This document shows, piece after piece, positions 322-54,300 of a DNA stretch of 64,000 nt (positions within the stretch are counted from its first letter, which is position 1; each line of letters starts with the position of its first letter). Below the pieces are notes generated by a model. The model saw only the letters and a program-made list of their open reading frames with translations, did no database searches and had not been told where the DNA came from. The stretch comes from Tricholomella constricta. Its lineage: Eukaryota > Basidiomycota > Agaricomycetes > Agaricales > Lyophyllaceae. The stretch covers positions 372,001-436,000 of the forward strand of contig JAACJP010000006.1 in NCBI GenBank assembly GCA_013368375.1, written 5' to 3'. Position numbers and translations under genes: made by a program.

Positions 322-626
322 TGTTGCGAATAGACTCAGCCGTGTATAGGTGAACGACTCGTATTTAGTATGTACCTGTTGCGAATAGACTAAATACGGG
401 TAAGTATGCGTGTATGCGTCGTAAGTAAGATTAAACGTACCTCAGCCGTGTATAGGTGAACGACTGAGGTACTCGGTATCTACGATTGCCCATGATACTT
501 GGTACTGTACAGTACCAAATCTGCCTCCATCTTTCCCCTGTTCTTTTATCCTCTGGGCGAGTGGGCGGGCGCATCACGCGTGTCCCACGTGGTCCCGACG
601 CGTCCAGCGCGAATCCCTTTCCAACA
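322..626 (-). repeat. Copia-1 3' LTR
   Basis: 305 bp, TGTTGCGAAT... to ...TTTCCAACA on the plus strand. In element sense the LTR starts TGTTGGAAAG, has a TATA-like GGATAAAAGAA near 544-554, then a perfect 20-bp palindrome at 499-518. It ends with the duplicated A-intron-B / A-B block described in the findings: A copies at 441-463 and 335-357, B copies at 377-389 and 322-334, and a 51-nt GT...AG block at 390-440. Confidence 0.93.
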
Positions 627-3600
627 CTCCCCCTGATTCGTGCAACCCACTAGGGATCGCATAGGCGCAGCGCGACACAATGCTGGTGATGCGCGGGTCG
701 TGGTAGTGCCTTTGTAAGTATGTCGGCGGTATTTTCGGCACTGGGTATATATTGTAGGCCAATGTCGCCGGTCTCGACTCGCTCGCGGATGAAGTGATGG
801 CGGATCGATGTGCTTGACCCGGTTGTGGTTTCGTTTGTTTTCTGCTATTGCGATAGCGCCATTGTTATCCGCGCGAAGGATTGCGGGTCTCGGTTGGGGG
901 AATCCGACCTCTGCCAGTGACGAAAACATCCATTGGACCTGCTCGACGGCCCGTGACATCGCCATGTACTCTGCTTCGGTGGTGGATGTGGCGACTGTCG
1001 CTTGGTATTTGGATCCCCAAGCTGTGGGTCCGCCTGCTTGGGTGAAAACGTGGCCGGAGACCGAGCGTCTCGTGTCGGGGCAAGCTGCGAAGTCCGAGTC
1101 AACGTACCCGGTAGGTGTGCAGTTGTCGTATCCGGGTCCCCCGTACCGTAGCTTGTAGTGTAGCATCCCCTTGATATATTGTAGGACATGCATTAGTGCT
1201 TGCCAGTGTGCTTTCCCGGGGTTTGATGAGAACCGGCTGAGGGAGGCGACCGCGAATGATAAGTCTGGTTGCGTGCTGATCTGCGCGTACATCACTGCTC
1301 CGAGTACCTCACTATATGGTCTATCCTTCATGTATTCCCGGTCGGCCTCATCTGTTGGCGACTGTGCCTGGGTGAGTATGATTCCGGGTGGCAGTGGCGT
1401 ATGTTTTGGTGCGCAATCAGACATGTTGTGACAGGCGAGGACGCGTTTCAGGTATTCCTCTTGGTCCATGGTGAGTAGTCGTTTATCGTGGCTACGGGTT
1501 ACACGAATTCCCAGTACGAGCTTAATGTCGCCGAGGTCTTTGATCGCGTATTTCTCCCCTAGCTCAGCGACCGCGTGGGTTGCTTCCTGCGCCACTGATG
1601 ACATGCCCGTCATGTCGTCCGTGTACGTGCTTGTGATGGTTATGCCTCCCTCACGCTCTCTTGCCCTCACTGACGGGTCCGCCCTCGATCGTCTGTATCC
1701 CTGCCTCATCATGTCTTCATCAAGCGCCTTCCACCAATTATATGCTCCGTCCATCGTTCCGTAAATCGCCTTATCCACCAGTGCCACAATGCCTCTCTTG
1801 TCCTTCTCCTGGTTCTCATCCCCATCGGTCGTCTTTGTTCCTGCAGCCACCTCGACTTGGAATACTTGGCTGGGGGTGAGTTCGTACCCCTCGGGCTGCT
1901 CCATGAGGATGGGGACTTGGTTCGGGGCATTCAAGTAGGCGCTGGAATAATCGATTTGCCATATCTCCCAGTCGTGTACGGTTCCGAAAGCGAGGTTGAT
2001 GCGGAGGGACTCATACCTGACTACGGATGCGTAGCTCGCAAAGAAGTCGACTCCTGGGATCTGTGAAAAACCCTTGGCCACTAGTCGAGCTTTTCTCCCA
2101 GTCACCTCCCCCTCTCCATTGTACTTCAGTGCGAAAGTCCATCTGTTCTTCATCGTCCTCGCCCCCTCAGGCCTCTCCACCAGTGTCCAGACCTTCCTTT
2201 CGTACATTCTCTTCATCTCCTCGTCCATCGGGGTCTTCCATAGGTCGGGGCGCTTCATTGCCTCTGAATAGGACTTGGGGATCCATGTCTCGACGTCGGG
2301 TGGCGCGGTAGTGGCTGACAGTGCCGTGCCCGTGGATTTCGCATTTTTTCGAGCCCAGTCGAGCCCGCGAGCTGCTGCGGCTGCTGCGGCTGCTGCGGCT
2401 GCTGCGGCTGCTGCTGCTGCTTCGGTGGCCTCGTTCTCGATGGCTGCTGCTGATGGGTTCCTAATACATGTGCCGCGGCGTGGTCCCTGGTCTGTCTGGT
2501 CAGATGTGGTGCTGGTGTTGGTGTCGGCGTCGTCTCTGGTGACCGTGACTGTGGGCTGGTTGTCAGGGAGGATGGTGTCGTTGAGGTGCTCATTATTGTC
2601 GGCCTCGTCGTCCTCAGTGTGCGCAATAGTGCGGTTGGCGCGGCCTTCCTCAAATATGACGTCACGGGATCTAAAAATCCGTCCGGTTGATCGGTCCAGC
2701 AATTTGTAATCGCCTTTCCCGAAATAGCCGATCAGGGCGCACTTTACCGATCGCATGTCCAATTTGCTTCCGCCGTCCTCTTTCGGGACTTTGGCATAGG
2801 CAATGCACCCAAACGGCCGTAGGTACGAGACATCGGGTTTCGCTCCTTCTCTGATCTCGAAGGGGGTCTTCCCGCTGTGTCTCGAGCTGGGTATGAAGTC
2901 GGAGATGTGGAGGGATGTCGCCATGGCCTTGCCCCAGTAGTGGGCTGGGAGGCCGGAGTCGTTTATCATGCTTCGGCCTCGGTCGAGGGTGGTGCGATTC
3001 ATCCGTTCAACGACTCCGTTGGCAGCGGAGGAGTGCGGTGCAGTGGTTTCGTGTTTGATCCCAAACTTTGTGGTGTACGCTGACCAGATGGAGTTGACGA
3101 ACTCCGGTCCCTCGTCGGTACGTATGGCGAGCAGTTTCCTTCCCGTCTGGCGCTCTGATTCGACGTGATATGACTCTAAGCACGCCGCCGTCGTCTCCAT
3201 TTTCTTGTCAGCTAGGAACCACCCCCTCACGCCGGCCCCCCCTTGGTCGCAACCCAACATCATGTAGGATTTCCCGCCTGTTGTCTTCACGCGTGCGGGG
3301 CCCCAGAGGTCGAAACTGGCCCGTTTGTTCGGTTTGCTCTCGGGTATGACTTGTTCGTCAAAGGGCCGTCTCGTCTGCTTCCCCATGATGCAATCTTCGC
3401 ATCGTCCAACCACCGCCTTCTTTGTGATGTCCAGCCCTTTCGTCATCTCGCTCCGGATCATTTCGCGGAGTATGCTCTCCCCTACGTGTCCGAGGCGTCT
3501 ATGCCAGGTTTCGAAGTCGACGGGGTGTCTGAGGGATCTGGCGGACATGGCTGCTGGGCGTGTGAGGAAGTCGATCCTGTACATGGTCTCGTTGTGGCAA

Positions 3601-3776
3601 GTTCCCCTCATGAAAGGTCGGCCATCTTGGTCATGGAACAGCGCGCCCTGTCCATTGAAGGTGGATGTACAGCCCTTCTTTCCGAGGCATCCAATGGAAA
3701 GGAGGTTGTGGTCGAGGTCCGGGGTATGTAGGACGTCATCAAAGGTCAGTTCGATTATCTGTCCGTCGAACGCCAC
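546..3776 (-). pseudogene. Copia-1 pol (integrase, RT, RNase H), frameshifted
   Basis: An open frame of 1,076 codons carries the GAG-pre-integrase motif (WHRRLGHVGESILREM, near residue 91). The HHCC zinc site (H...H, CEDCIMGK) follows, then an integrase core (FDLWGPA, TDEGPEF, NGVVERMNR), a reverse transcriptase and an RNase H ending in STTEAEYMA and KHID. The RT YxDD box is TYTDDMTG. A run of about 17 alanines, encoded by a gct/gcg trinucleotide repeat at about 2372-2430, sits in the linker between integrase and RT. After KHID the true C-terminus continues in another frame (RHHFIRERVETGD..., ADILTKALP) to a stop at 650-652, so the last residues of the long frame, which run into the LTR, are artefactual. 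The protein start is also lost to a frameshift near 3780 that separates it from the protease. Confidence 0.88.
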
Positions 3777-4896
3777 CGACTTTCTGACTTTTTGCCCTTC
3801 CCTACTATCCGAAATCCCTCTCCGCTTGCTGTGGTACCCGTGTCATCTTCGGGTAAGTGCTCGTACGTCTCGAAGTCTGCTCTATTGACGAAGAAGTGCC
3901 TACTGGCAGCGGAGTCCGCATAGCTGATGGGTTCCCCGTCATTTGCGTGATCAGTAGCCGAGAATGCCAGGTACCAAGGCGTCGTGTTAGCCGAGTCCGC
4001 GCTAGCCGAGTTCGTTGCGGTGATGACCGCGGAGTTGGCTGTGGGGGGTGTGCTCGTCGGTGGTGTGGTCGTTGCCTTCGGTCCCTTCCACCACTCCGGG
4101 TATTGACCTGCTAGTCCTCCCCCGGGTCGGAAGCACTGGTCTATTGTGTGGCCAATGCGGCCACAGCTCGGTAAGTTTGTGCATTTGAGCTCCGGGTGGC
4201 GCACAGGGCATTTGCCACTGTTGGTCGACGCTGATAGCGCCTGAGTCATTTTTGCAGGGGATATGTCCGAGGCGCTCGTGATGATCATGGTGTGGGTGGT
4301 AAGTCGGGTGATTACCGCTGCTGATGTGGCCTCAGTGAACAGGGAGCCGATCAGCACACTCCAGGACTTCGGCATTGACTTCAGGATGTATACACGGAAC
4401 TTCTTGTCCTGGATGTCCGCGCCCTGTCCGTTTGCAGCTGCCCATGCCTCACGCATGGCCGAGAAGTGTTTCTCGATGTCTGTGCCCTCTGTGTACTTGA
4501 TTGCCCCAAGCGCTTCCTCTGCATTGATCAGGGCGAGGTCGGACTTGGCGTCGCGGAGGGTGGTCAGTGATTGCCATGTCTCCGCCGCTGTGCCATCCAT
4601 TATGACACCTTGCCCTACTGGGTTGACAACATTTAGCGTTATCATCCCCTCCCCTGTGCATAGGCGTCCCGCTGGAGCCATTCTTCATATGTGGGGGTCG
4701 GCAATCCCCAGTATGATGTTGGTGGGGGTGCCGTGGTGTCGTCCCCGGGTGGCTTCGGGCAGGTAGTCTGCCCCCCAAGGTAGCCCAGTAGTCCCTTTGC
4801 CCTCGCGGCATTGAGTATGGTTGTCTTCCAATTGATCCAGTTAGTCCCGTCGAATTTTTCGGCGGGGGGCAGGAGGAATAGGTTTGGGTTAGACAT
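3755..4896 (-). pseudogene. Copia-1 gag and protease, frameshifted
   Basis: The start at 4896 (MSNPNLFLLPPAEKFDGTNW) is typical of Copia gag: an LxxxNWxxWK core gives the DUF4219/UBN2 type of capsid protein. The frame runs to about 4642 and resumes one base off as WQSLTTLRDAKSDLALINAEEA..., so there is a single-base slip in a G-rich run near 4660. A zinc-knuckle-like patch (CTNLPSCGRIGHTIDQC) lies near 4130-4180. The protease site reads YADSAASRHFF near 3900, where the usual DSGA/DSGC is DSAA. A second slip in an A5 run near 3780 separates this from pol. As read, no single polyprotein can be made. Confidence 0.85.
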
Positions 4897-4987
4897 CTTT
4901 GTTCGGTGTTCGGTATTTCGGTTTCAGTTGGTTCGGTCTCTGTTTGAGTGTTCAGGGAAAATTGCTGAGTTTGTCTAAGTGCTAACA

Positions 4988-4999
4988 GGGCCCATAACC
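4988..4999 (-). other. Copia-1 primer-binding site, half-tRNA type
   Basis: Directly inside the 5' LTR, element sense reads GGTTATGGGCCC. This is complementary, with about one mismatch, to the anticodon arm of initiator tRNA-Met (GGGCUCAUAACC) rather than to a tRNA 3' end. Internal half-tRNA priming is the known mode of Drosophila copia. Copia-2 has the same site at 16349-16360. Confidence 0.75.
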
Positions 5000-5304
5000 T
5001 GTTGCGAATAGACTCAGCCATGTATAGGTGAACGACTCGTATTTAGTATGTACCTGTTGCGAATAGACTAAATACGGGTAAGTATGCGTGTATGCGTCGT
5101 AAGTAAGATTAAACGTACCTCAGCCGTGTATAGGTGAACGACTGAGGTACTCGGTATCTACGATTGCCCATGATACTTGGTACTGTACAGTACCAAATCT
5201 GCCTCCGTCTTTCCCCTGTTCTTTTATCCTCTGGGCGAGTGGGCGGGCGCATCACGCGTGTCCCACGTGGTCCCGACACGTCCAGCGCGAATCCCTTTCC
5301 AACA
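5000..5304 (-). repeat. Copia-1 5' LTR
   Basis: 305 bp, matching the copy at 322-626 except for three visible substitutions (for example catgtatagg versus cgtgtatagg). The intron-like block lies at 5068-5118. The A copies are 5119-5141 and 5013-5035; the B copies are 5055-5067 and 5000-5012. The TSD cgtct follows at 5305-5309. Confidence 0.93.
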
Positions 5305-7794: not shown

Positions 7795-10313
7795 TTACGC
7801 TTCTCAGCCTCCGCATTGGCGCCTGGAACATACACGGCAACCTTGCGCTGAAGCTCCTTCAAAATGATGTACTTACCTGTGTCCGTGAATGCGATGTTTT
7901 TCTCTTCATCGAGACATGGCTACGTCCTGCGCAACATGAAGTTCTCACCATTCCCGATGGCTACCATATTTACTCTTCACCTCAGCCCGCATATCCTGAC
8001 CTGCGACCACAATGAGGGGGTGTCGCTGTCTTGCTCCGTTCCTCCCTTCCCGCTCACGTCAAGGAGTCGCTCTGCGTGCCAGATGTTATCGCTATTGAGC
8101 TTCCTGACTGCCTGGTACTTGGCATGTACATACCGCCCTCGGGCTCTAATTGGCCTGCGTGGGCCTCTGCTGATCCCGAAGACCACTGTCTTGCTCTGAT
8201 TGACCTGGCGCACTGCACCATGTCCAAACCTGTTATCATCCTTGGTGATCTCAATGCCCGTACCGCTTCTCGACAGGTCACCTTGCCGGACTGCCCCGTG
8301 CAACAGTCGCTCGATGAACTCACAAATACCCGCGGAATGCGACTGCTCAGACTTCTGCATGCCCATTCCCTTGTGATTCTGAATGGCACCACATACGAGT
8401 ATCCTCGACCCGGGGCGCTCACTCCTTTCCAACCTATCGGGTCCTCTGTTGTAGACTACGCCCTCGTCTCCCACACTCTCCTGCCCTGCCTACCCAGCGC
8501 TGCCTTGCATATCAGTAACACGGAGTGGTCGGATCATGTGCACCTCTGCCTGGAAGTTAACTTTCCTTCCATTGCATCTTCTGTCCTACCACCCCCCAAC
8601 CCTCCCTCCATCCGGAAAGCATTATTAGCACTAGGCCATGACACTGCTTATGGTGATAGCCTGCAGCTTAACCTTGAGCTCCAACGGGTGCTTGCTTCTG
8701 CAAGGACGGACGAAGAGGCCACCATTGACTTGTATGGCCCGGTGACTACCATTACGACTCCTCTGACAGTCTATGTTGCAACGACTTGTCGACGGCAACT
8801 GGGAGTCCCCCCAACTGCTGCCTTTGGTGTCTTCTTCGGCCCAAAGAACCGCAACAATGCAGGATTCCGCATCTCGGGCCCTCAGACTGATGCGCGCGCC
8901 TCCGTTGCGGCCGTTCTGTGTGTCCTTCAACTGACATCTCCTGACTCATCCTTGCATCTCTACATTCCCTCTCAATCCGTTATCCGAACTATTGCATACT
9001 GGGCCTCGCAATTCCAGTCTCAGGGCTGGGACTGCCCAAACGGAGATCTCTACTCAGTTATTGTCAGTTTCCTCATCACGCGTACTGCGCCCGTATCCCT
9101 CCGCTGGATTCCCTCCTCCTCCGATAATCTCCACCATCGTCAGGCGTGCACTTTAGCAGTAACCCACTGTCAGCGGCTGCCAACTGTTGCTCCCTATTTG
9201 CCGCCACCAGTTCCCGTGCTGCCGCCCTCTATTGCCACTGACGATGACCCTGACCTGCAACAACTGCCTAAAGTAACCACACCTTTGCCGGTCACCCCAC
9301 CTCTGCCCCCCTCCAAGGAGGTCTCCTTCCCAGTGCTCCACATCGACTTTGATGTTGAGTCACATCGCGGGCAGCACAGGGAGCGTGAGGCGAAGATGCT
9401 GAACCTTCGGCGACTGAAGGCGTGCCAGACGTCTCGCCAGTTCTGGACTCTCATCCGTGAATGGACGGACCCCAAATCGCGGCCACCTCAGGTCACTGCG
9501 CAGCAGCTCCATCATGTCTTCAGGGGGCGCATCAATCCCCCTCCTGTGCCCTCTTCCACCTTCGACGCTGATGTGTATGCCCAAGCGCTTGCGTTCTACC
9601 GTACCATTCCTGCCACCACCATCGACAGGACGCCCGAGGGGTTTTTCTCCTCGCCTCTCTCCCTCGGTGAGCTGCAGTGGGCGAAGCGAAAGTTAGAGCG
9701 GGACAACTTACACAGCGCGTGTGGTGCGGACAACGTTTCTTACCCTACAATTGCACGCATCCCCAATATGAATCTACTGTCGCTCCTGCAACTCTGCATT
9801 GACCTCCGCCGCGCACCTGGTCCATGGTTGCACACAGTGCTTATAGGCGTCTTGAAGCGACGATGCAACCCCACGAATCCCAACGACTATCGCCTTATAG
9901 GCCTAGAGTCCTGCATGCTCAAGCTATTAACCCTCCTCATCGACAAACGCTTACGCGAATGGGCTGAGACCTATCACATTCTCCCTGACACGCAGAATGG
10001 CTTTCGACCGCACTACCGCACCAACAACAACTCGTTCATCCTACATTGTGCGATAGAGCGAGTGCGCGCCAGTGGCAAGTCAGTCTACATCGCCTTCATC
10101 GACCTTGAAAATGCCTTTCCCTCCACTGATATTCCCCTCCTATGGACCAAGCTCTATCGCAAAGGAGTTGCAGGCCCCATTTTCGATTGGCTACGCACCC
10201 TGTACGCCGATATGAACTATATTGTCCGTCACGGAGGGGCCCTCTCTGAAAGCTTCACCTCCCTGCTCGGCCTTCTCACAGGGGATATGGCGTCCCCCAG
10301 TCTGTGGAACATC
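7722..10313 (+). pseudogene. LINE ORF2, endonuclease to RT, interrupted by Copia-2
   Basis: One frame holds, in order: an apurinic-type endonuclease/exonuclease/phosphatase domain (RIGAWNIHGN, FIETWL, then ILGDLNART and SVVDYALVS); an RNase H-like domain at about 8760-9175 lacking catalytic acids (see findings); and a reverse transcriptase (LIGLESCMLKLLTLLIDKRL, TQNGFRPHYRTNNNS, motif A AFIDLENAFPS, motif B-like SLLGLLTGDMASPSLWN). There is an in-frame TGA at 8013-8015 inside the endonuclease domain, between DLRPQ and GGVAVLLRSS. The frame runs to 10313, where the Copia-2 LTR begins. It continues after the duplicated acatc at 16642 with the RT catalytic box. Its overlap with the end of ORF1 suggests ORF2 is made by frameshift or re-initiation. 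Confidence 0.85.
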
Positions 10314-10630: not shown

Positions 10631-13600
10631 TTAATCAAGTGGAATGGAGGGTAAAGGAATGAGTCCGAGTGCACGACAGTGCTTGAGATGTAGCGGAAGA
10701 GGAAGAAGTTTAGTAAGAATATCTGCGGTCATGTCCGTAGTAGGAACCCAAGAAGTGGAAAAAGAACCCGACCGAAGGTGCTCACGGATGAAATGATAGC
10801 GAATATCGATATGTTTGGAGCGAGAGGACGTGCTGTCCGAATTAGCGATTTCGAGAGCACTTTGATTGTCGCAGAGGAGAGGGAAAGGATCGGGAATAGG
10901 AAGGTCGAGCGAACGGGTGAACTGCCGAATCCAAAGCGCTTCCTTCATCGTGTGGGAGATGGACATATATTCAGCTTCTGTAGAAGAGAGTGCCACGGTT
11001 CGTTGGCGAACAGAACTCCACGAGACGAGGCTGGAGTAGACAAAGAACGCATATCCGGAGACGCTTCGACGGGTATCTTCATCACCAGCCCAGTCCGCAT
11101 CCATCATACTGCAATTGCGAGGAACGAGAGCGGACAGAGGGGAACCAACAGGAGTCTGACTGAAATTATACTCCAGAGCTAGGTCGGCGGTACCCAAGAG
11201 GTAGCGGAGAACGGACTTGGCAGCGAGAAGATGGAGGCGAGATGGATGAGCGTTGAATTGTCCAAGCGACATAGCAGTGAAGGCTAAATCGGGCCGAGTG
11301 CACAACGAAAGATAGAGGATAGATCCAACGAGACATTGGAAATGGATGGTGACGTCGGAGTCAGGGATATCAGGAAGACAGTTGGGAGGAGCGGAACCTG
11401 ACGAAGATAACTTTTGTCGAAGAGGAAGAGATACCGGTCGGGCATTGAGAAGATTGTATTGCGAAAGCAGGTCGATGATAAAGGGACGTTGGGAAAGCCA
11501 GAGTCGTCGTGTAGGACGATCCCGCGAAATGCGAATACCCAAATACATGGACACGGCACCTAGATCGACGACGGTAAAGTGTCGGTTCATTTCCGCAAGA
11601 ATCCAGAAGTAAAGAGGCTCAGAGTTGGTGGCAACAAGACCATCATCAACGTGGATTGGCATGATGAAGAGGAGATCCGAACCGTCGGCAGGCATGGGGA
11701 TAGAGGGATGGGGAGGCGTCGAGAAGGTGGCGTAAAAGACGGTGTGGTCAACTTCGCACCGGATCAAACCAATATCCTCGAGTACCTGGCGAAGTAGACA
11801 GTACCACTCATGGGAGGACTGCTTCAGACCGTAGAGTGCTCGAATGCAAAGAAGCACCAGGTGAGGATCGGCTTCAGGAAAACCCGGGATTTGCTTGACG
11901 AAGACTACATGGGAAAGTAAAGCGTTGAGGAATGCAGTCTTAGCATCGCAGGTTCGGAGTTCGAGGTTGTGAAGGGCGGCGAAGGCGAGGATAATTCGGA
12001 TGCTGGTAAGTTTGGCGACAGGAGCGTAAGTGGTGCCGTAATCTTCAGGACGCTGAGCAAAACCTCTGGCAACGATACGAGCCTTTTCTTTTCCTCGGAT
12101 GATGGAGCCGTCAGGATTGTACTTGAAATCGAAGACCCAACGGAGTCCGATGGCTTTGCGACCAGGGGGTAAGATAGTAGGCTTGAAAACGCCCAGTTCG
12201 CAGAGACTATCGTATTCTCGCTGCATGGTGTCTTTCCAAACTTGGGCGTCCGGACGAAGAAGTACCTCTTCGTAGGTAGACGGAGGAAGATCCAAGTTGA
12301 ATTGATGAGGAGTGGTACAACGATGGATGGGATCTGGATGCGCGGCAAGAGACTGATAGAGAGAGATTGCTTCAGCTTCGTGAAAAACAAGATTGTCTTC
12401 AGGAGAATCGAAGGATCGGGTCGTAAGGAGAGCAATGAAATCTTCTATCGCAGCTAAGGTCTGCTGAGGATGGACAACCCCAGAACGAGTAGAGCGAGCA
12501 GCGCAAAGACGGGTCAATCGTTCATCTCTGGCCCGAATGGTGGCGGCATGATCGTTTCCAAGCGTAGTGGCAGTAAAGTTACGGGTGGAGCGACGAGGAG
12601 GAGGAGGAGGAGGATCAGGCGAAGGGACGGACGGATGAAGAGACGGTGCGACCAAAGAGGGTTCAGAAGACGTCGGGATATTGGTTTCGGGGACGGTGGG
12701 AGAAGACGAAGAGGGGACGACAGGAGCATGGCCCAGGGATCCCCGGATATTCTCGTTAAAAACGATATCTCGGGAAAAATGGTACTTCCCATTTAAGTCT
12801 CGTACTCGCCAGCCAATACGAAAATCTTCGTACCCGACGAAGATCGCCTCGAAACGCTTTGGACCACCCTTGGTGCGTAATTCTGAAGGGATGAGAACAA
12901 AGCATTGACAACCCCAGACGCGAAGATGTGAGAGATCGGGAGTCGTCTTCTCCATGACAGAAAAAGGCGTAAAGTTTTCAGTAAGAGTTGACGTAGGTAA
13001 ACGATTGCGAAGGTACTGAGCAGTAAGGACGGCATCCCCGAAGAAGGAAGGGGGAAGGCCAGAATCGGCGAGCAGAGTTTGCGCGGTCTCCTCGAGAGTA
13101 CGAATATACCGTTCGGCCTTTCCATTCTGGGAATGGGCATACGGAGCGGTAACCTGGTGTTGGATGCCACGAGAAGTGAAATGAGCTTTAAGATCACCGC
13201 CCGTGAATTCTCCAGCGCCGTCAGAACGGACAGCAATGACTTTGTTGCCCAATTTGCGTTCCCAGGCAGCTTTGGTGGCGATGTAGTGGGAAAAAGCTTC
13301 ATCCTTGTGAGCAAGGAGAGCAGTACTACCAAAATTCGAGTGATCGTCGAGAATAGTATGGAAGAAACTCTTGCCGTGAGGAGTTTGGACAGGAAAGGGA
13401 CCGCAGGTGTCCATGTGGAGGAGTTCGCATACTTGGGGGGCTCGACGAGCAAAGCGATCAAACGGTTGTTGAGGGTGTTTCCCGATGAGGCAGGGAATGC
13501 AGTGAGTATCGGAAAAAGGGCCTTCGTATGTCACGCCGGTGGCATAGGACTTGGTGAGAACGGCACGGGTAGCGTCAAGTCCCAGGTGACCGAAGCGTCG

Positions 13601-14125
13601 ATGCCAAAGATTGGGTGTAAGATCGACGCGAGGGAAGACTAGATCAGAAGGCTGTTGTTCGATAGCGGGAAGAACGAGGAAGTTGTTCACAAGGTAAGGA
13701 GCAGAGGGTGACGGAGGTAGGACAAAGTCCAGGTGGAGGAAGGAGAGGCGGCGTACAACGGTTGCATTGATTGTATGCTCAGAAAGATGAGGAAGCGAGT
13801 CGGGGAGATGAATAGATGTTACGTTCTTCTCGAAGACTAGATGCATGTCCTTTTCGGCCAAGGACCCAATGGAGAGGAGGTTGATGGGGACATCTGGCGC
13901 ATGAAGACAATCCCGAAGACAGATAATACGATTGGTACCGTCCAAAGAAATCCGGAAGCGGACTTCACCTTTTGCTAGTGTCGCGAGTGTGCCACAGTTA
14001 GCTGTCCCGACAGAAACTGCCAGCGAAGTATCATAGGACCAGAAATATTTACGGTCACGGATAATGTGGACCGTGCAACCCGAGTCCAGGATAGCATTGA
14101 ATCGATCGGCAAGTGAAGCCAACAC
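10631..14125 (-). CDS. Copia-2 pol polyprotein (protease, integrase, RT, RNase H)
   Basis: A frame of 1,164 codons from the internal methionine at 14125; the same frame is open further upstream into the zinc knuckle. Protease: AILDSGCTVHI near residue 12. GAG-pre-integrase: LWHRRFGHLGLDATRA near 172. Integrase HHCC ends in CIPCLIGKHPQQPFDR, and the DDE core has HMDTCGPF, RSDGAGEF and NGKAERYIRTLEE. RT: IPPGRKAIGLRWVFDFKYN, then the catalytic box MPIHVDDGLVATN. RNase H: DADWAGDEDTRRSVSGYAFF, ALSSTEAEYMS, ADILTKLL. The stop at 10631 lies 37 bp from the 3' LTR. All catalytic motifs are present, so this could be functional if the gag slip is corrected or is an error. Confidence 0.93.
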   Translation of the reverse strand: MLASLADRFNAILDSGCTVHIIRDRKYFWSYDTSLAVSVGTANCGTLATLAKGEVRFRISLDGTNRIICLRDCLHAPDVPINLLSIGSLAEKDMHLVFEKNVTSIHLPDSLPHLSEHTINATVVRRLSFLHLDFVLPPSPSAPYLVNNFLVLPAIEQQPSDLVFPRVDLTPNLWHRRFGHLGLDATRAVLTKSYATGVTYEGPFSDTHCIPCLIGKHPQQPFDRFARRAPQVCELLHMDTCGPFPVQTPHGKSFFHTILDDHSNFGSTALLAHKDEAFSHYIATKAAWERKLGNKVIAVRSDGAGEFTGGDLKAHFTSRGIQHQVTAPYAHSQNGKAERYIRTLEETAQTLLADSGLPPSFFGDAVLTAQYLRNRLPTSTLTENFTPFSVMEKTTPDLSHLRVWGCQCFVLIPSELRTKGGPKRFEAIFVGYEDFRIGWRVRDLNGKYHFSRDIVFNENIRGSLGHAPVVPSSSSPTVPETNIPTSSEPSLVAPSLHPSVPSPDPPPPPPRRSTRNFTATTLGNDHAATIRARDERLTRLCAARSTRSGVVHPQQTLAAIEDFIALLTTRSFDSPEDNLVFHEAEAISLYQSLAAHPDPIHRCTTPHQFNLDLPPSTYEEVLLRPDAQVWKDTMQREYDSLCELGVFKPTILPPGRKAIGLRWVFDFKYNPDGSIIRGKEKARIVARGFAQRPEDYGTTYAPVAKLTSIRIILAFAALHNLELRTCDAKTAFLNALLSHVVFVKQIPGFPEADPHLVLLCIRALYGLKQSSHEWYCLLRQVLEDIGLIRCEVDHTVFYATFSTPPHPSIPMPADGSDLLFIMPIHVDDGLVATNSEPLYFWILAEMNRHFTVVDLGAVSMYLGIRISRDRPTRRLWLSQRPFIIDLLSQYNLLNARPVSLPLRQKLSSSGSAPPNCLPDIPDSDVTIHFQCLVGSILYLSLCTRPDLAFTAMSLGQFNAHPSRLHLLAAKSVLRYLLGTADLALEYNFSQTPVGSPLSALVPRNCSMMDADWAGDEDTRRSVSGYAFFVYSSLVSWSSVRQRTVALSSTEAEYMSISHTMKEALWIRQFTRSLDLPIPDPFPLLCDNQSALEIANSDSTSSRSKHIDIRYHFIREHLRSGSFSTSWVPTTDMTADILTKLLPLPLHLKHCRALGLIPLPSIPLD

Positions 14126-19213: not shown

Positions 19214-22200
19214 TCAGACACGAGCGGACCCCATCTCGACCGGCAGCTGGCTGTACCCATCACCCCGCCTTGCACTCACCATCCCCCTCACACTGTCCAG
19301 CACTGTCCCCGCACTGTCCATGAACATACCCGTCCAGCCAACCCCGGTGCCTATTACTTCCTCCCCCGGCATGATGCTACTCTGAGGGCGCATCCACCAC
19401 TTGAGCGTCAGCGAGCTCGTCACGACGCTCACACTCGAGAATGCCATTGCTGCCCCCGCCAACATCGGGTGCATATACAGCCCGAACGGCAAAAAGAAGC
19501 CCATGGCGAGCGGGATACCAAGCACGTTGTAGATGCACGCCCAGACGAGGTTGCGCTTGATCACGGAGAAGATCTTGCGTGAGAGGTGCAGGGCCGCGAC
19601 GACGTCGAGCAGGTCGGAACGCATTAGTACAATGTCGGCGGCTTCAATTGCCACGGAGGTGCCGGAGGACAGGGCGATGCCGACGGTAGCTGCGACGAGG
19701 GCCGGAGAGTCATTGATTCCGTCTCCGACCTGACAGCAACCGTCAGCCTTGGACGAACTGACATGTGTAGAACGAGGAGACAAACCATTGCAACGCCACT
19801 GCCGTGCTTCTCGATCAGCTCTGTAATCATCGATGCCTTACCGCCGGGGCTCATACCAGCCCACACACACTCCGGCCGAATTCCCACCTGCTTCGCGATG
19901 GCAATTGCAGTCGCCTTGCCGTCCCCGCTCATCATGTTCACCTCGATGCCCATCGCATGCAGAGCCTTGATCGCATGCCTGCTGGACGGTTTCGGTGCAT
20001 CCGACAGCGAGACGCCCAATATGGGCAGCGGGAGCGCAGAATTTGGTTTCGGAAGGATAGACACGAAGATGATCGTCCGGCCGAGCTTCGTCTCCTGCTC
20101 CTCGTACTTTGAAAGGGAGTTTGGAATGTAGGCGTCGTCGGACTGCGTCACGAACCGCGCATTGCCCACGAGCATCGTGTACTTCCGGGCGCCGCACGAA
20201 ACTATCGACTTGACACCTGCACCCGTAACGCTCTCGAATGTTTCCACCGTCGTCGCTGGACTATTTGTGCCGAGGAGGTCCTTGCCGTACACCGCGATAG
20301 CTTTGGCGAGAGGATGCTCCGACTTGGCTTCTATTTCACTGACCATCGCCAGCACCTCTTTACGTCCCGTCGTACCGTCCGCACAAAAGCTGTCAAGCCC
20401 AGCATCACCCGCGTACAGCTCTTCATTGCTCGACGCAAGATGGCTATTCCCAGGACTAGGCACCCAATGCATCCCCACAACACTAAGTTTCCCTACGGTC
20501 ACCGTTCCTGTCTTGTCCAGCACTACTCTCTTGATCGACTTGCTCGCCTCTAACGCACGCCCGCCCTTGATCAAAATCCCGTTCTTCGCACCTATGCCCG
20601 TCCCGACCATGATCGCCGTGGGCGTCGCCAGGCCCAGCGCACACGGGCACGCCACGACGACGACGCTAATACACATCTGTAGACACACCGCGAGCTTGCT
20701 CGCTCCGTGCTTATGGAACATATTCGGCAGGTTTTCGTCGCTCACGACGCTCGTCACGATGACCCACCCGATGAATGTGATCGCCGCAAGAGACACCACT
20801 CCAGGCACGAAGTACCCCGCGACGCGATCCGCGAACGCCTGGATCGGCGCCTTCGATGTCTGGGCCTCCTCGACGAGCCGCACAATCTGCGACAGCGCAG
20901 TGTCCTTTCCTGCGCGTGTCACCACCATGTCGAAGGTGCCGAGGCCATTGACGGTCCCGCCGATCACCGTGTCACCGATCTGTTTCAGCACAGGCACGGC
21001 TTCGCCGGTGATGGCACTCTCGTCAACGCTGGAGGTCCCTTTGGTGACCGTGCCATCAGCGGGCACTTTATCACCGGGCACGAGTTTAACAATGTCACCC
21101 ACTTCAACGAGTTCCGTGGCGATCTTTTTCTCCTGTGTGCAGGCTGGGGCGTCGGTATAGATTGTGGCCATCGAGGGAGCGAGGGACATGAGGTCCGTGA
21201 GGGCGGCGCTAGTCTTGCCTTTGGCTTTGTTCTCGAGGTAACGACCGAGCGAGACAAACATTATTAACATAGTGCTCGTTTCGAAGAAAAGGAAGGGACG
21301 GAAGTTGGCAGTGGTGTTGAACATGGCGGAGATCATGATGCAAAATGAGTAAAAGTAGGCCGCTGATGTGCCAAGCATGACAAGGACGTCCATGGTTGCG
21401 GTGCCATGTCTCAGCGACTTGTAAGCACTGCGATAGAACTTGGAGCCGACCCAGAATTGTGTAGGTGTGGTGATCAGTAATTCAAGGACGTCGCCAACAT
21501 AAACAGCGTTGAAAAGGCGGTAAGCTATTGTTTCTCTGAGGTAAGGGATCCTTGGTCCGATCATGGCTATGAAGAAGACAGGCACAGCGAAGGAGAGACT
21601 CCAGAGGAAACGTCTCCGCCACTCCAGCACCTCCTTGGTGCGTGTGAGGGACTGGAGTTGGGTGGCGTCCTGTTGATCAGAGAGCATGGCATCGAAACCC
21701 ATGTCCTCTATTCGCTCGACCATCTCTCGGGGCCCGATGAGAGCGCGGTCAAAGTCAATCGTACATGTTTCGGTAGCGAGCGAGAGGGCTACGGAAGTGA
21801 TGCCTGGGACTGAGGACAGCCCAGACTCGATGGTGGCGATGCATGATGAACATGTCATGCCGTATACCCGAAGAGTGACAGTGTCGGCGCGGACGGGTGG
21901 GATGAAGGTTGCATCGAAGCCAACGTCAGATATTTCCTGTGTGGGGACAGGAATGTTATCCTTGATGAATTGAAATGAGTGGATTGCGTACGCTGACTAG
22001 CTTGTCCACCGTCCAGTAAGCTGGGTCGTATTCGATGATACCACGTTCTGCAAGGAGTGCGACTTTGATGGAGTGGATACCCTTCTGTTCTCGCAACATG
22101 CCCTCGATGGCCTGCAGTAACGTTCACGAAAGGTTAATATACCTGGGATTGGGGCACACATACCTCTACACAAGATCCACAGGTCATGCCTTCTATCCGC

Positions 22201-51300: not shown

Positions 51301-54300
51301 TGGAGTCACAACCCCAGCGACCAAAGTTAAATTGGAGGATACCGATGGCCGCATTCGGCGCCATCGCTCACTAGAGAAACGAAAGGAATGACTCAAAGTC
51401 ACAGTAGAAGATGACGATGATCCTGACAATGAGGGTAGGCCGATAAATAGCCTACTGAAGGATCATCCAGCCTTATTACTGTCTGAGGAAGAGTTTCAAG
51501 AAACTCTTAAGGAGGGGGATAAGCCACCTCTGAAGACGAAGAAATCCCAAAGAAGACAACAGAAGGCGCCGAATGAGCCTTCAAAAGAACAAGTTAATAA
51601 GCCACGCGAAGAACGTCAGCGCGACACTGAAGCGCTAAAGACGAACAACGCCGATAAGGATACGGGATCAGAACCGTATTCCGATGCAAGCAATCGATCA
51701 TTCTGGGACCGGCCTGACCCACATCCACAGTATGAGTGGATGTTCGACCCAAGGATGCCACAAGAATGGAACGCAGTAATAGCATCCATGCGGGCTCACA
51801 AAGGACGGAACATAGGCACGCTAGGAAAAGCGTACCGAAATGCCCGTCCTGAAGAAGTGTCGGAACCAACGGAAATGAACGTTCCGGTGAATATACGATG
51901 GGCGAAGAGACCGTTATATCGGTTACCAGTGAACGACGAGAGCGACTTTGCTCTCGTAAAACTACGAGCTAGGTTTGATGATAAACCTAGCAAAGAGGAT
52001 GCAGCGGATATACGCGCAGCACGATCTGCCAAAGAAAAGGGTAAGGCGCCTAATGGAGACCTCACCCCAGAAGACTATCCACGACTTCGTCAGCAATGGC
52101 ATGACGAATTTGAAGACATGGTGGGTGGTACGAAACAACAGTTACCACCCTGGCGAGAAGTCAACCACGAGATAACACTCGTCGATGATGAGAAGCAATA
52201 TCAGTACCACATGCCGAGGTGTCCCATGTCCCTTCGTGAAGAATTCTACGCGAAGGTCAATCGTTATACGGACTCCAAATGGTGGGAGCCTCGTTCGGTG
52301 AAACAGGCAGCGCCGCTGCTATGTATTCCGAAAAAGGACGGCTCCCTAAGAACACTCTTGGATGCACGGCAACGTAACGACAATACTATAAAGGACGTTA
52401 CGCCGTTGCCGGACCAGGAAGTCATCCGCGAGGATGTCGCAAGGGGAAAAATACGTTCAAAAATCGACTTAACGGATGCGTACGAACAAGTACGCATCCT
52501 CGAAAAAGACGTGCATAAAACCACATTCGCAACGATAGCGGGAACATACGTGAGTAACATCATGCAGATTGGGGACTGTAATGCCCCCGCAACATTTCAA
52601 CGATTAATGACGTCCATATTTCGGGACGTCATTGGGAAGTTTATGCATGTATATTTGGATGATATATTCATATTCTCGAACTCTATAGAAGAACATGAAG
52701 ACCATTTACGAGTTGTGTTCGAACGATTACGCGAAAAATCACTCTACCTCAAATGGAAGAAATGCGAATTGTATTCGGACCGCGTTGACTGCCTTGGTCA
52801 TATCATCGACGACCAAGGAATTCACCCCGACGCAGATAAACTGGCACGGATTCGTGAATGGAGGACACCACGGAACTATAACGATATCCAACGATTCGTT
52901 GGACTGGTTAACTATCTGGGACAATTCCTCCCAGATATATCAGCCTACACTGGACCGTTGATGGCGATGACCGAGAACGGATCGCCATTCTACTGGAGGC
53001 CGATTCACCAACGATGCTTTGAAATGATCAAGCATATATGTTGTACTACACCGATTATTCGGCCTATTCAACCAAAGACAGGTGAACCAATATGGATTAT
53101 CTGCGACGCCTCAAAATCAGGCGTCGGAGCGATGTATGAGCAAGGACCTACATGGATCCAAGCTCAACCGGCGGGATTCATGTCCAAGAAGTTTACCAAT
53201 GCACAGCAGAATTACGCTGTGCATGAACTAGAAACTCTGGCAATCCTCGAAGCACTACTTAAGTGGGAGGATAAACTTGTGGGTTATAAAATCCACATCA
53301 TTACCGACCACAAAGCCCTCGAATTCTTTAAAACCCAGGTGAACTTATCACCTAGGCAGCGTCGATGGATGGAATATATGTCGCGATTCAACTTCGACAT
53401 TACCTATGTGAAAGGTGATTTGAATAAAGTCGCTGACTGCCTATAGCGGTATTTCGAGAGCGATACCCATCAAGATCGTTACGATGTCCACGACTTCGTA
53501 GCCGCTGATGCGAGAATCGATCCTACTGGTGAAGACCTGCCAGCACCACGATACCATGAGATCGTGGAAAAAGTGGTCGAGATTCGAGCAATGAAAGACG
53601 TAGAAATACGTCGCAGCAAGCGTCTTCAAGAACGCCAGGAGGATCGAGATATTGAAGCCCAGATAATGGAAGATGCGGCACCAAGTACTGCATCCGGGGC
53701 ATCATCACATCCTCAGGGGAGTCTGAATCCAACCGAACGTGAACGTACGGTCGGAGATATGGTATTAGGGAGGGACACAGTCGCTCCTCCCCCAGATACA
53801 ACGGATGCGAAGATCCGCCGAGAGGTTATCTTAGGATACCCGAAGGATAAACTATTCTCGGTTATCCTTGATAAGCCTAAGGAATTTCGTGCATTCACCA
53901 CGAAAGATAAACTTATTTGGACCACGAACGCGATAAATGACAGTGTTCTATGTATTCCTCGAGAACCGGAGCTCATCACATCTATCCTAGAACAAGCCCA
54001 TAAAACTATGGGCCATTTTGGTGCTGAACGAACAACAGAGTATATTCGACGATGGTACTGGTGGCCATCGCTAGCCACTACCGTTCGCACGTTTTGTAAG
54101 ACGTGCGAGTACTGCCAACAGATCAAGACATCGAACCAGAAACCGTCAGGGAAACTTCATTCCCTACCAGTACCGACGAAACCTTGGGACTCCATTGGAA
54201 TGGACTTTATTGGTCCATTTCCAGAATCTCATGGATATAACTACCTATGGGTAGTAATCTGTCGTATGACCAGTATGGTGCATATGATACCCATACATAC

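Follow-up and report, generated by a model that had tools for sequence, protein, structure and literature searches.

Predicted introns and an intron-free exon copy in the long terminal repeats of copia retrotransposons of Tricholomella constricta: a putative landing pad for strong-stop DNA

The copia element of the window and the layout of its LTRs

The window, a stretch of 64,000 nucleotides from Tricholomella constricta, carries a Ty1/copia element on its minus strand (322-5304). The gag gene (3758..4681; Pfam Retrotran_gag_2) is of the copia type, and in the pol gene (825..3776; Pfam rve, SH3_retrovirus and RVT_2) the integrase lies upstream of the RVT_2 reverse transcriptase, as is characteristic of the Ty1/copia group. 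The termini agree with this assignment: the two LTRs match to 99% over 300 nt and have TG...CA ends, the 5-bp target duplication AGACG flanks the element on both sides, and the primer binding site GGTTATGGGCCC (4988..4999, minus strand) adjoins the 5' LTR. We take this site to be that of a half-tRNA(iMet) primer of the Drosophila copia type. Further retroelement genes in the window are a second copia pol with integrase and RVT_2 (10634-14125, minus strand) and two more RVT_1 reverse transcriptase genes (8031-10313 and 51740-53443), the second of them with RNase H domains.

The 3' LTR (322..626; like all features below, on the minus strand) opens with TGTTGGAAAGGG at 626 and closes with ...GCAACA at 322. 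Its terminal half holds two copies of the same two blocks. The first block with its leading AG, A1 (441..465), is followed by an intron-like block of 51 nt (intron 1, 390..440; GTACGT...TACTTAC...TTTAG), whose splicing is predicted, by the putative second exon B1 (377..389), which is continued by G|GT, and by the spacer GGTACATACTAAATACG (360..376), at the second base of which a predicted intron 2 begins. Then come A2 with its leading AG (335..359) and B2 (322..334), the LTR end; they are identical to A1 and B1 and are joined without the intron. The preliminary description had read this order as A 463-441, block 440-390, B 389-377, A 357-335 and B 334-322, with the second A fused to the second B where the 51-nt block is missing, and this reading was confirmed, the repeats being exact over 23/23 and 13/13 positions. 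Its spacer of 19 nt (376-358) was correctly positioned, except that both copies of A are preceded by an AG (465-464 and 359-358) which belongs to the repeat; with this AG set apart, the spacer proper is 376-360.

The layout recurs, as had been noted, in the 5' LTR (5000..5304), where the second A has one mismatch (22/23). A1 lies at 5119..5143, intron 1 at 5068..5118 and B1 at 5055..5067. The predicted intron 2 of the 5' leader (4999..5053, 55 nt; GT at 5053-5052, AG at 5000-4999) comprises the remaining spacer, A2, B2 and the first base of the primer site. Its excision would fuse A1-B1 to the primer site.

Upstream of A1, two features of U3 deserve mention. The bases GTACCTC (466..472), termed the U3 arm, may form base pairs with the last bases of A1 and with the donor site of intron 1, and the predicted transcription start, the A of TCAGTC, directly follows this arm. 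A perfect palindrome of 20 nt, TTGGTACTGTACAGTACCAA, is located at 499..518 and again at 5177-5196; stretches resembling it, often imperfect, were seen upstream of A1 in other clade I LTRs examined. The palindrome is perhaps a regulator site.

Recurrence of the layout and identity of the copies within elements

All DNA evidence comes from one genome, the 44-Mb assembly of T. constricta in 118 contigs, in which the family was found by a reverse-transcriptase search (122 matches) and by DNA searches with the LTRs. Four clades were sorted by hand according to LTR likeness and reverse-transcriptase identity, not by a tree. Identity to the window element amounted to 63-100% in clade I, 43-56% in clade II, about 32-40% in clade III and 28-29% in clade IV (five elements with a listed match). 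A motif parser requiring CTCA, GT, AG and GGT was applied to 73 clade I/II loci, leaving out L090, which lacks such an LTR, and recovered the full layout in 55 of them; the 18 unparsed loci were truncated, interrupted, degenerate or single-copy, with L102 and L105 narrowly below the score. The identity counts, branch-point counts and offset profiles given for clades I and II rest on LTRs picked by this parser. Junctions and edges were also re-placed by sequence identity alone, without motifs, in 81 loci drawn from clades I, II and IV, L090 among them, and 63 of the 81 scored with the two-copy layout. Representatives for motif scoring (23) and for folding (20) were chosen by hand, about one per lineage. 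For clade IV, 7 LTRs were read (L131 and six stretches) among 28 places listed, and for clade III, 13 stretches among 34 places listed plus three more from a separate listing. A search for relatives in viral contigs found none; proteins related to the Pol of the window element are listed for Hypsizygus marmoreus, Lyophyllum shimeji, Termitomyces and Laccaria bicolor.

An abundant copia family of the same genome (L129; LTR of about 266 nt, 35 hits) had no direct repeat of at least 10 nt at a spacing of 40-169 nt in the 901-nt stretch holding its LTR, thus the layout is not a property of all copia LTRs in this genome. Within the LTR of that family (C8:1065550-1066450) stands a donor-like CTCTAG|GTAAGC, and splicing there could reach beyond the primer site.

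Within a given LTR the copies tend to be the same. Among the 55 parsed clade I/II LTRs, the two A blocks agree in 36, the two B blocks in 38, and both pairs are identical in 33; the 22 with at least one copy difference include many that look decayed, while some could represent real lags. Between lineages the blocks diverge strongly. The 33 perfect LTRs fall into 19 A/B types, in which A measures 24-27 or 32-33 nt and B 13-16 or 23-25 nt, with a median edit distance between types of 9 for A and 8 for B. Five sister pairs (L001/L003, L007/L008, L009/L010, L021/L022 and L089/L107) are separated by 12 edits, and every edit is present in both copies. Matching copies were also found in 7/7 clade IV LTRs read (six types) and in eight types of clade III, so that 33 distinct types with identical copies were counted (19 + 6 + 8). 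The co-variation between first and second copies proposed as a check in the preliminary description was hence seen: the blocks differ between these types, and each type has them alike in both copies.

Of 17 two-LTR elements, 12 are perfect in both LTRs, four differ in one LTR only (L001/L002, L012/L020, L086/L123 and L099/L100; L086 was counted as perfect with the B copy extended to the LTR end) and one, L096/L098, has copy differences in both. Beside the primer site, A1+B1 equals A2+B2 in 13 of 18 5' LTRs tested and is 1-2 bases off in the other five; the 5' LTRs L095, L098 and L108, all with copy differences, stand outside these 18. In four two-LTR elements (5' LTRs L002, L020, L123 and L099) the sole copy difference affects the second copy within the 5' LTR and is always C to T or G to A. 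These changes may be due to chance or decay, or may mark a site of strand-transfer errors.

Chance is excluded as an origin of the layout because it recurs in 63/81 loci with copies that are identical within and divergent between elements. The matching A and B blocks flank a predicted intron that is missing from the second copy, therefore whatever keeps them alike must transfer A1 and B1 jointly. Reverse transcription of spliced RNA best explains identical copies across an intron.

Splice signals and the edges of the copied unit

Intron 1 has the signals of a spliceosomal intron. In the motif-free placement, the ends of the block are GT and AG precisely at the copy boundaries in 58/63 LTRs; the exceptions, L013, L017, L027, L102 and L116, have decayed or shifted copies. 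A drift of the block ends away from GT and AG had been named as a possible refutation, and these counts indicate that the ends are kept. The intron length is 50-58 nt in the 23 representatives, a CTNAY branch point occurs in 23/23 (shuffle mean 9.7) and TACT[TA]AC in 18/23 (shuffle mean 0.3). As a host yardstick served the gene of a copper-transporting P-type ATPase in the window (19627-21858) with introns of 52, 55 and 56 nt, with which the earlier remark that 51 nt is the intron size of this genome agrees. The idea of a real mini-intron accompanied by a built-in processed copy thus gains support from the splice-site ends, the branch points and the co-varying copies. We infer the removal of intron 1 from the RNA from the concerted evolution of the copies across it.

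The edges of the repeated unit were placed without requiring any motif. An AG lies at most 2 nt from the best-scoring left edge in 59/63 LTRs, and a GT at most 3 nt from the right edge in 60/63. At the left edge of the 23 parsed representatives, the copies match in 23/23 at offsets 0 to 2 from the AG; upstream the matches fall to 10/23 at -1, to 2, 1 and 1 at -2 to -4, and range from 12 to 7 at -5 to -8. In clades I and II this AG stands within CTCAG, mostly as TCAGTC or TCAGTT, a TCAG context which we take to be an initiator-like motif; because of it, the copied unit of these clades most likely begins at the transcription start. At the right edge of 21 parsed 5' LTRs, B and GGT match in 21/21, the base after them in 0/21. 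GGT is also part of the primer site, therefore clades I and II alone do not separate a splice donor from a primer-site leftover. In clade IV, B1 is followed by a GTANG donor and B2 by TTAAC or GTAACC instead of the primer site; the LTR runs about 25 nt past B2 to CTAACA, and the copy halts at an AG (in L150, the match extends three bases beyond it). Clade IV hence speaks for a splice donor at the right edge. In L086/L123 the copied unit takes in the ATA between LTR end and primer site, and since no matching target duplication flanks this pair, its LTR end was set by alignment.

The predicted intron 2, consisting of spacer and copy, measures 54-70 nt in 22 clade I/II representatives and has GT and AG at its edges. 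In clades I and II its donors are weak (GTACAT, GTCAAT) and there is no branch-point excess, with CTNAY in 5/23 vs a shuffle mean of 6.6. Its splicing is a prediction from these edges, from the GTANG donors of clade IV and from the branch points of clade III.

Clade III represents a one-intron form of the layout. The LTR has a single exon, a GTAYG donor (12/12 LTRs), a spacer and then the exon a second time; this exon copy supplies the branch point and the AG, thus spacer and exon copy together make up the predicted intron of 51-59 nt. The copied exon has CTNAY in 12/12 and CTRAY in 11/12 LTRs, counted without a shuffle control. The copies are identical in 10/12 LTRs; those of L134 differ by one mismatch, those of L142 by one shift. 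The shared unit opens at an AG in L127, L132, L133 and L141 and earlier in other LTRs, and the transcription start may accordingly vary in this clade.

Some clade III LTRs have a single copy and lack the intron precisely: L130 and L137, both LTRs of the C64 element, L136 and L138. They are the product expected from a landing on the first exon, or from a slip between the copies. L135, the apparent partner of L138 on C39, retains the copy: L135 (C39:399825-400010) appears to be the 3' LTR with the exon duplication, and L138 (C39:406935-407070) is the intron-free 5' LTR. The mismatch between the two is possibly the trace of a slip in plus-strand synthesis or of later recombination. No intron-free LTRs were seen among the clade I/II loci read. 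The single-copy forms of clades I and II, L079/L080, L091, L113 and L115, keep intron 1. L115 shares a flank with L116, L118 and L119 and differs from them by the spacer-A2-B2 unit, which points to a deletion between the B repeats after insertion.

The U3 arm was considered as a switch that masks the donor of intron 1. In 14 clade I loci the terminal U3 bases pair with the A1 end and the 5' splice site. At pairs 7-9, 40/42 cells are paired vs 36.2 expected on re-dealing the partners (p 0.00015 by re-dealing, relatedness not corrected), with the combinations GTAT/ATAC, GTAC/GTAC and GTG/CAC. The 11 clade II loci gave no pairing excess (23/33 vs 23.0 expected); the donor hardly varies there. By folding, the predicted donor accessibility was lower with the arm in 12/12 clade I and 4/8 clade II representatives; over these 20 the mean was 0.12 with the arm, compared with 0.30 when the arm was left off and 0.25 when it was reversed. 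A drop above 0.02 was found in 2/7 clade IV and 1/7 clade III loci, for the latter with only 5-16 nt of U3 included. Since the effect is patchy in clades II, III and IV, masking by the U3 arm is not general, and the hairpin, tried as a general switch, was reduced to a feature of clade I. Clade I sequences also show a candidate hairpin at the 3' splice site of intron 1.

Proposed replication through spliced RNA, its alternatives and known systems

We propose that, most likely, each round of reverse transcription rewrites the A-B copy from the spliced leader (probability about 0.7), and that it would serve as the landing site from which the introns are restored out of the 3' LTR. Transcription would start at the AG that opens A1. 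Intron 1 and intron 2 are predicted to leave the 5' leader, such that A-B abuts the primer site and strong-stop synthesis would yield a cDNA complementary to A-B. At the other end of the RNA, the 3' LTR, with a putative polyadenylation site at or beyond A2, would have escaped splicing and still contain the introns. On it the cDNA would land on A2-B2, where the match is full-length, and not on A1, where only A matches. Continued synthesis along the spacer, B1, intron 1, A1 and U3 would then rebuild the whole LTR with a fresh A-B copy. In clade I, pairing of the U3 arm over the 5' splice site could spare the 3' LTR from splicing: the arm bases lie upstream of the predicted start and are therefore expected at the RNA 3' end only. 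The preliminary description had offered two options, an intron kept through reverse transcription or the scar of a strong-stop transfer from spliced RNA. The former fits better than a one-time scar, since lineages that diverged widely each have matching copies. That description had not included the second predicted intron made up of spacer and second copy, the likely transcription start at which the unit opens, or the simpler version in clade III.

Among the alternatives, an RNA spliced at intron 1 only, with the reverse transcriptase jumping from B2 to B1 and intron 2 never removed, appears unlikely, though it may hold in clades I and II. Such a jump would account for the lacking branch-point excess in intron 2 of clades I and II, could use the B repeat of 13-25 nt in the perfect types, and on unspliced RNA would yield LTRs such as L091, L113 and L115, which keep intron 1 and end at B1. 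Clade III, however, has no B repeat and yet good splice signals at its only intron, in clade IV the second donors read GTANG and the copy stops at an AG within the LTR, and no LTR with an extra unit was encountered among the loci read. Still a little less probable is an unspliced genomic RNA with an ancestral duplication, in which repeated template switches or gene conversion events keep A1/A2 and B1/B2 alike. Recombination between short direct repeats does take place, as L115 compared with L116, L118 and L119 suggests, but A and B would need separate conversions, each halting at a splice junction, in 25 two-block types (19 + 6), and a single switch would collapse the array instead of homogenising it.

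Static copies kept identical by selection on leader RNA structure or on a protein site are very improbable. A stem of the CTCAG/CTGAG type around A1, present in most of 29 loci listed, would suit a selected structure; A and B nevertheless vary in sequence and length between lineages, and a structure would not force the same new sequence on both copies. A one-time scar in a single family, or an assembly artefact, is hardly conceivable, as the layout is spread over many contigs and four clades and was found at both ends of 17 two-LTR elements; the scar in its single-family form is refuted by the recurrence across the four clades.

Several other parsings of the LTR were discarded as well. The spacer does not qualify as an 18-nt mini-intron, as several clade II spacers have just 8-9 nt before the AG. 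For clades I and II, a direct splice from A1 to the AG that closes A2 would leave the likeness of B1 and B2 unexplained and an extra G in clade II. With a transcription start at A2, and R equal to A2, the two copies would not be expected to be linked. Nor is the GGT that follows B1 a second primer site, the similarity being lost at the fourth base (0/21) and B2 of clade IV having no adjoining primer site.

Taken together, a retrotransposon lineage probably replicates through its own spliced RNA and yet inherits its introns, with a copy of the spliced exons acting as strong-stop landing pad and being rewritten with every jump. It would be an old design, present in one- and two-intron forms in four copia clades of one mushroom. 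Any element whose movement involves spliced RNA is expected to lose its introns: Ty1 sheds an inserted intron when it transposes, and retroviruses export unspliced genomes for this reason. A landing-pad copy, if true, would be a different answer to intron loss, in which the leader may be spliced and the introns are restored from the other end. The copied exons would then form a cDNA archive in every insertion, a record of splicing kept in DNA only, and the genome sequence alone would reveal the transcription start, the introns used and the site of first-strand transfer.

Searches of a full-text corpus with most subscription papers outside it brought up no published description of an LTR with an intron and a spliced copy. 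Penelope-like elements retain spliceosomal introns despite movement through RNA and encode a Penelope-type reverse transcriptase with a GIY-YIG endonuclease; we know of no LTR copy mechanism in them. They are a different class from the window element, for which Pfam gives a copia integrase and RVT_2 and not the Penelope type, and the common point is that introns are kept despite an RNA stage. With the Ty1/copia group (Pseudoviridae) the elements share gag, the integrase before RVT_2, LTRs with the 5-bp target duplication and, as we take it, a primer site of the Drosophila copia type. Intron-split exons together with a spliced exon copy in the LTR are, to our knowledge, not a feature of that group, and the L129 copia family in the same genome, unlike the elements described here, lacks them.

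The major splice donor of foamy viruses lies in R and is masked in the 3' LTR, and SHAPE analysis showed a different donor structure in RNAs with and without 13 bases upstream of +1 (PMC3694450). The likeness to the present elements is a splice donor of the LTR, here a predicted one, at both RNA ends, and perhaps a few U3 bases upstream of the start which, present in the 3' LTR only, would alter the structure; here this signal is clear only in clade I (folding 12/12; 40/42 paired cells). In foamy virus the masking controls polyadenylation, and the part of that study considered here describes neither an exon copy in the LTR nor a rewriting from spliced RNA (PMC3694450). For the BARE copia element, distinct RNA pools for translation and replication are reported (PMC3735527). 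Both BARE and the elements of T. constricta are copia elements in which RNAs have roles of their own, but whereas the pools described for BARE are distinct, the RNA predicted to be spliced here is the very RNA that is copied.
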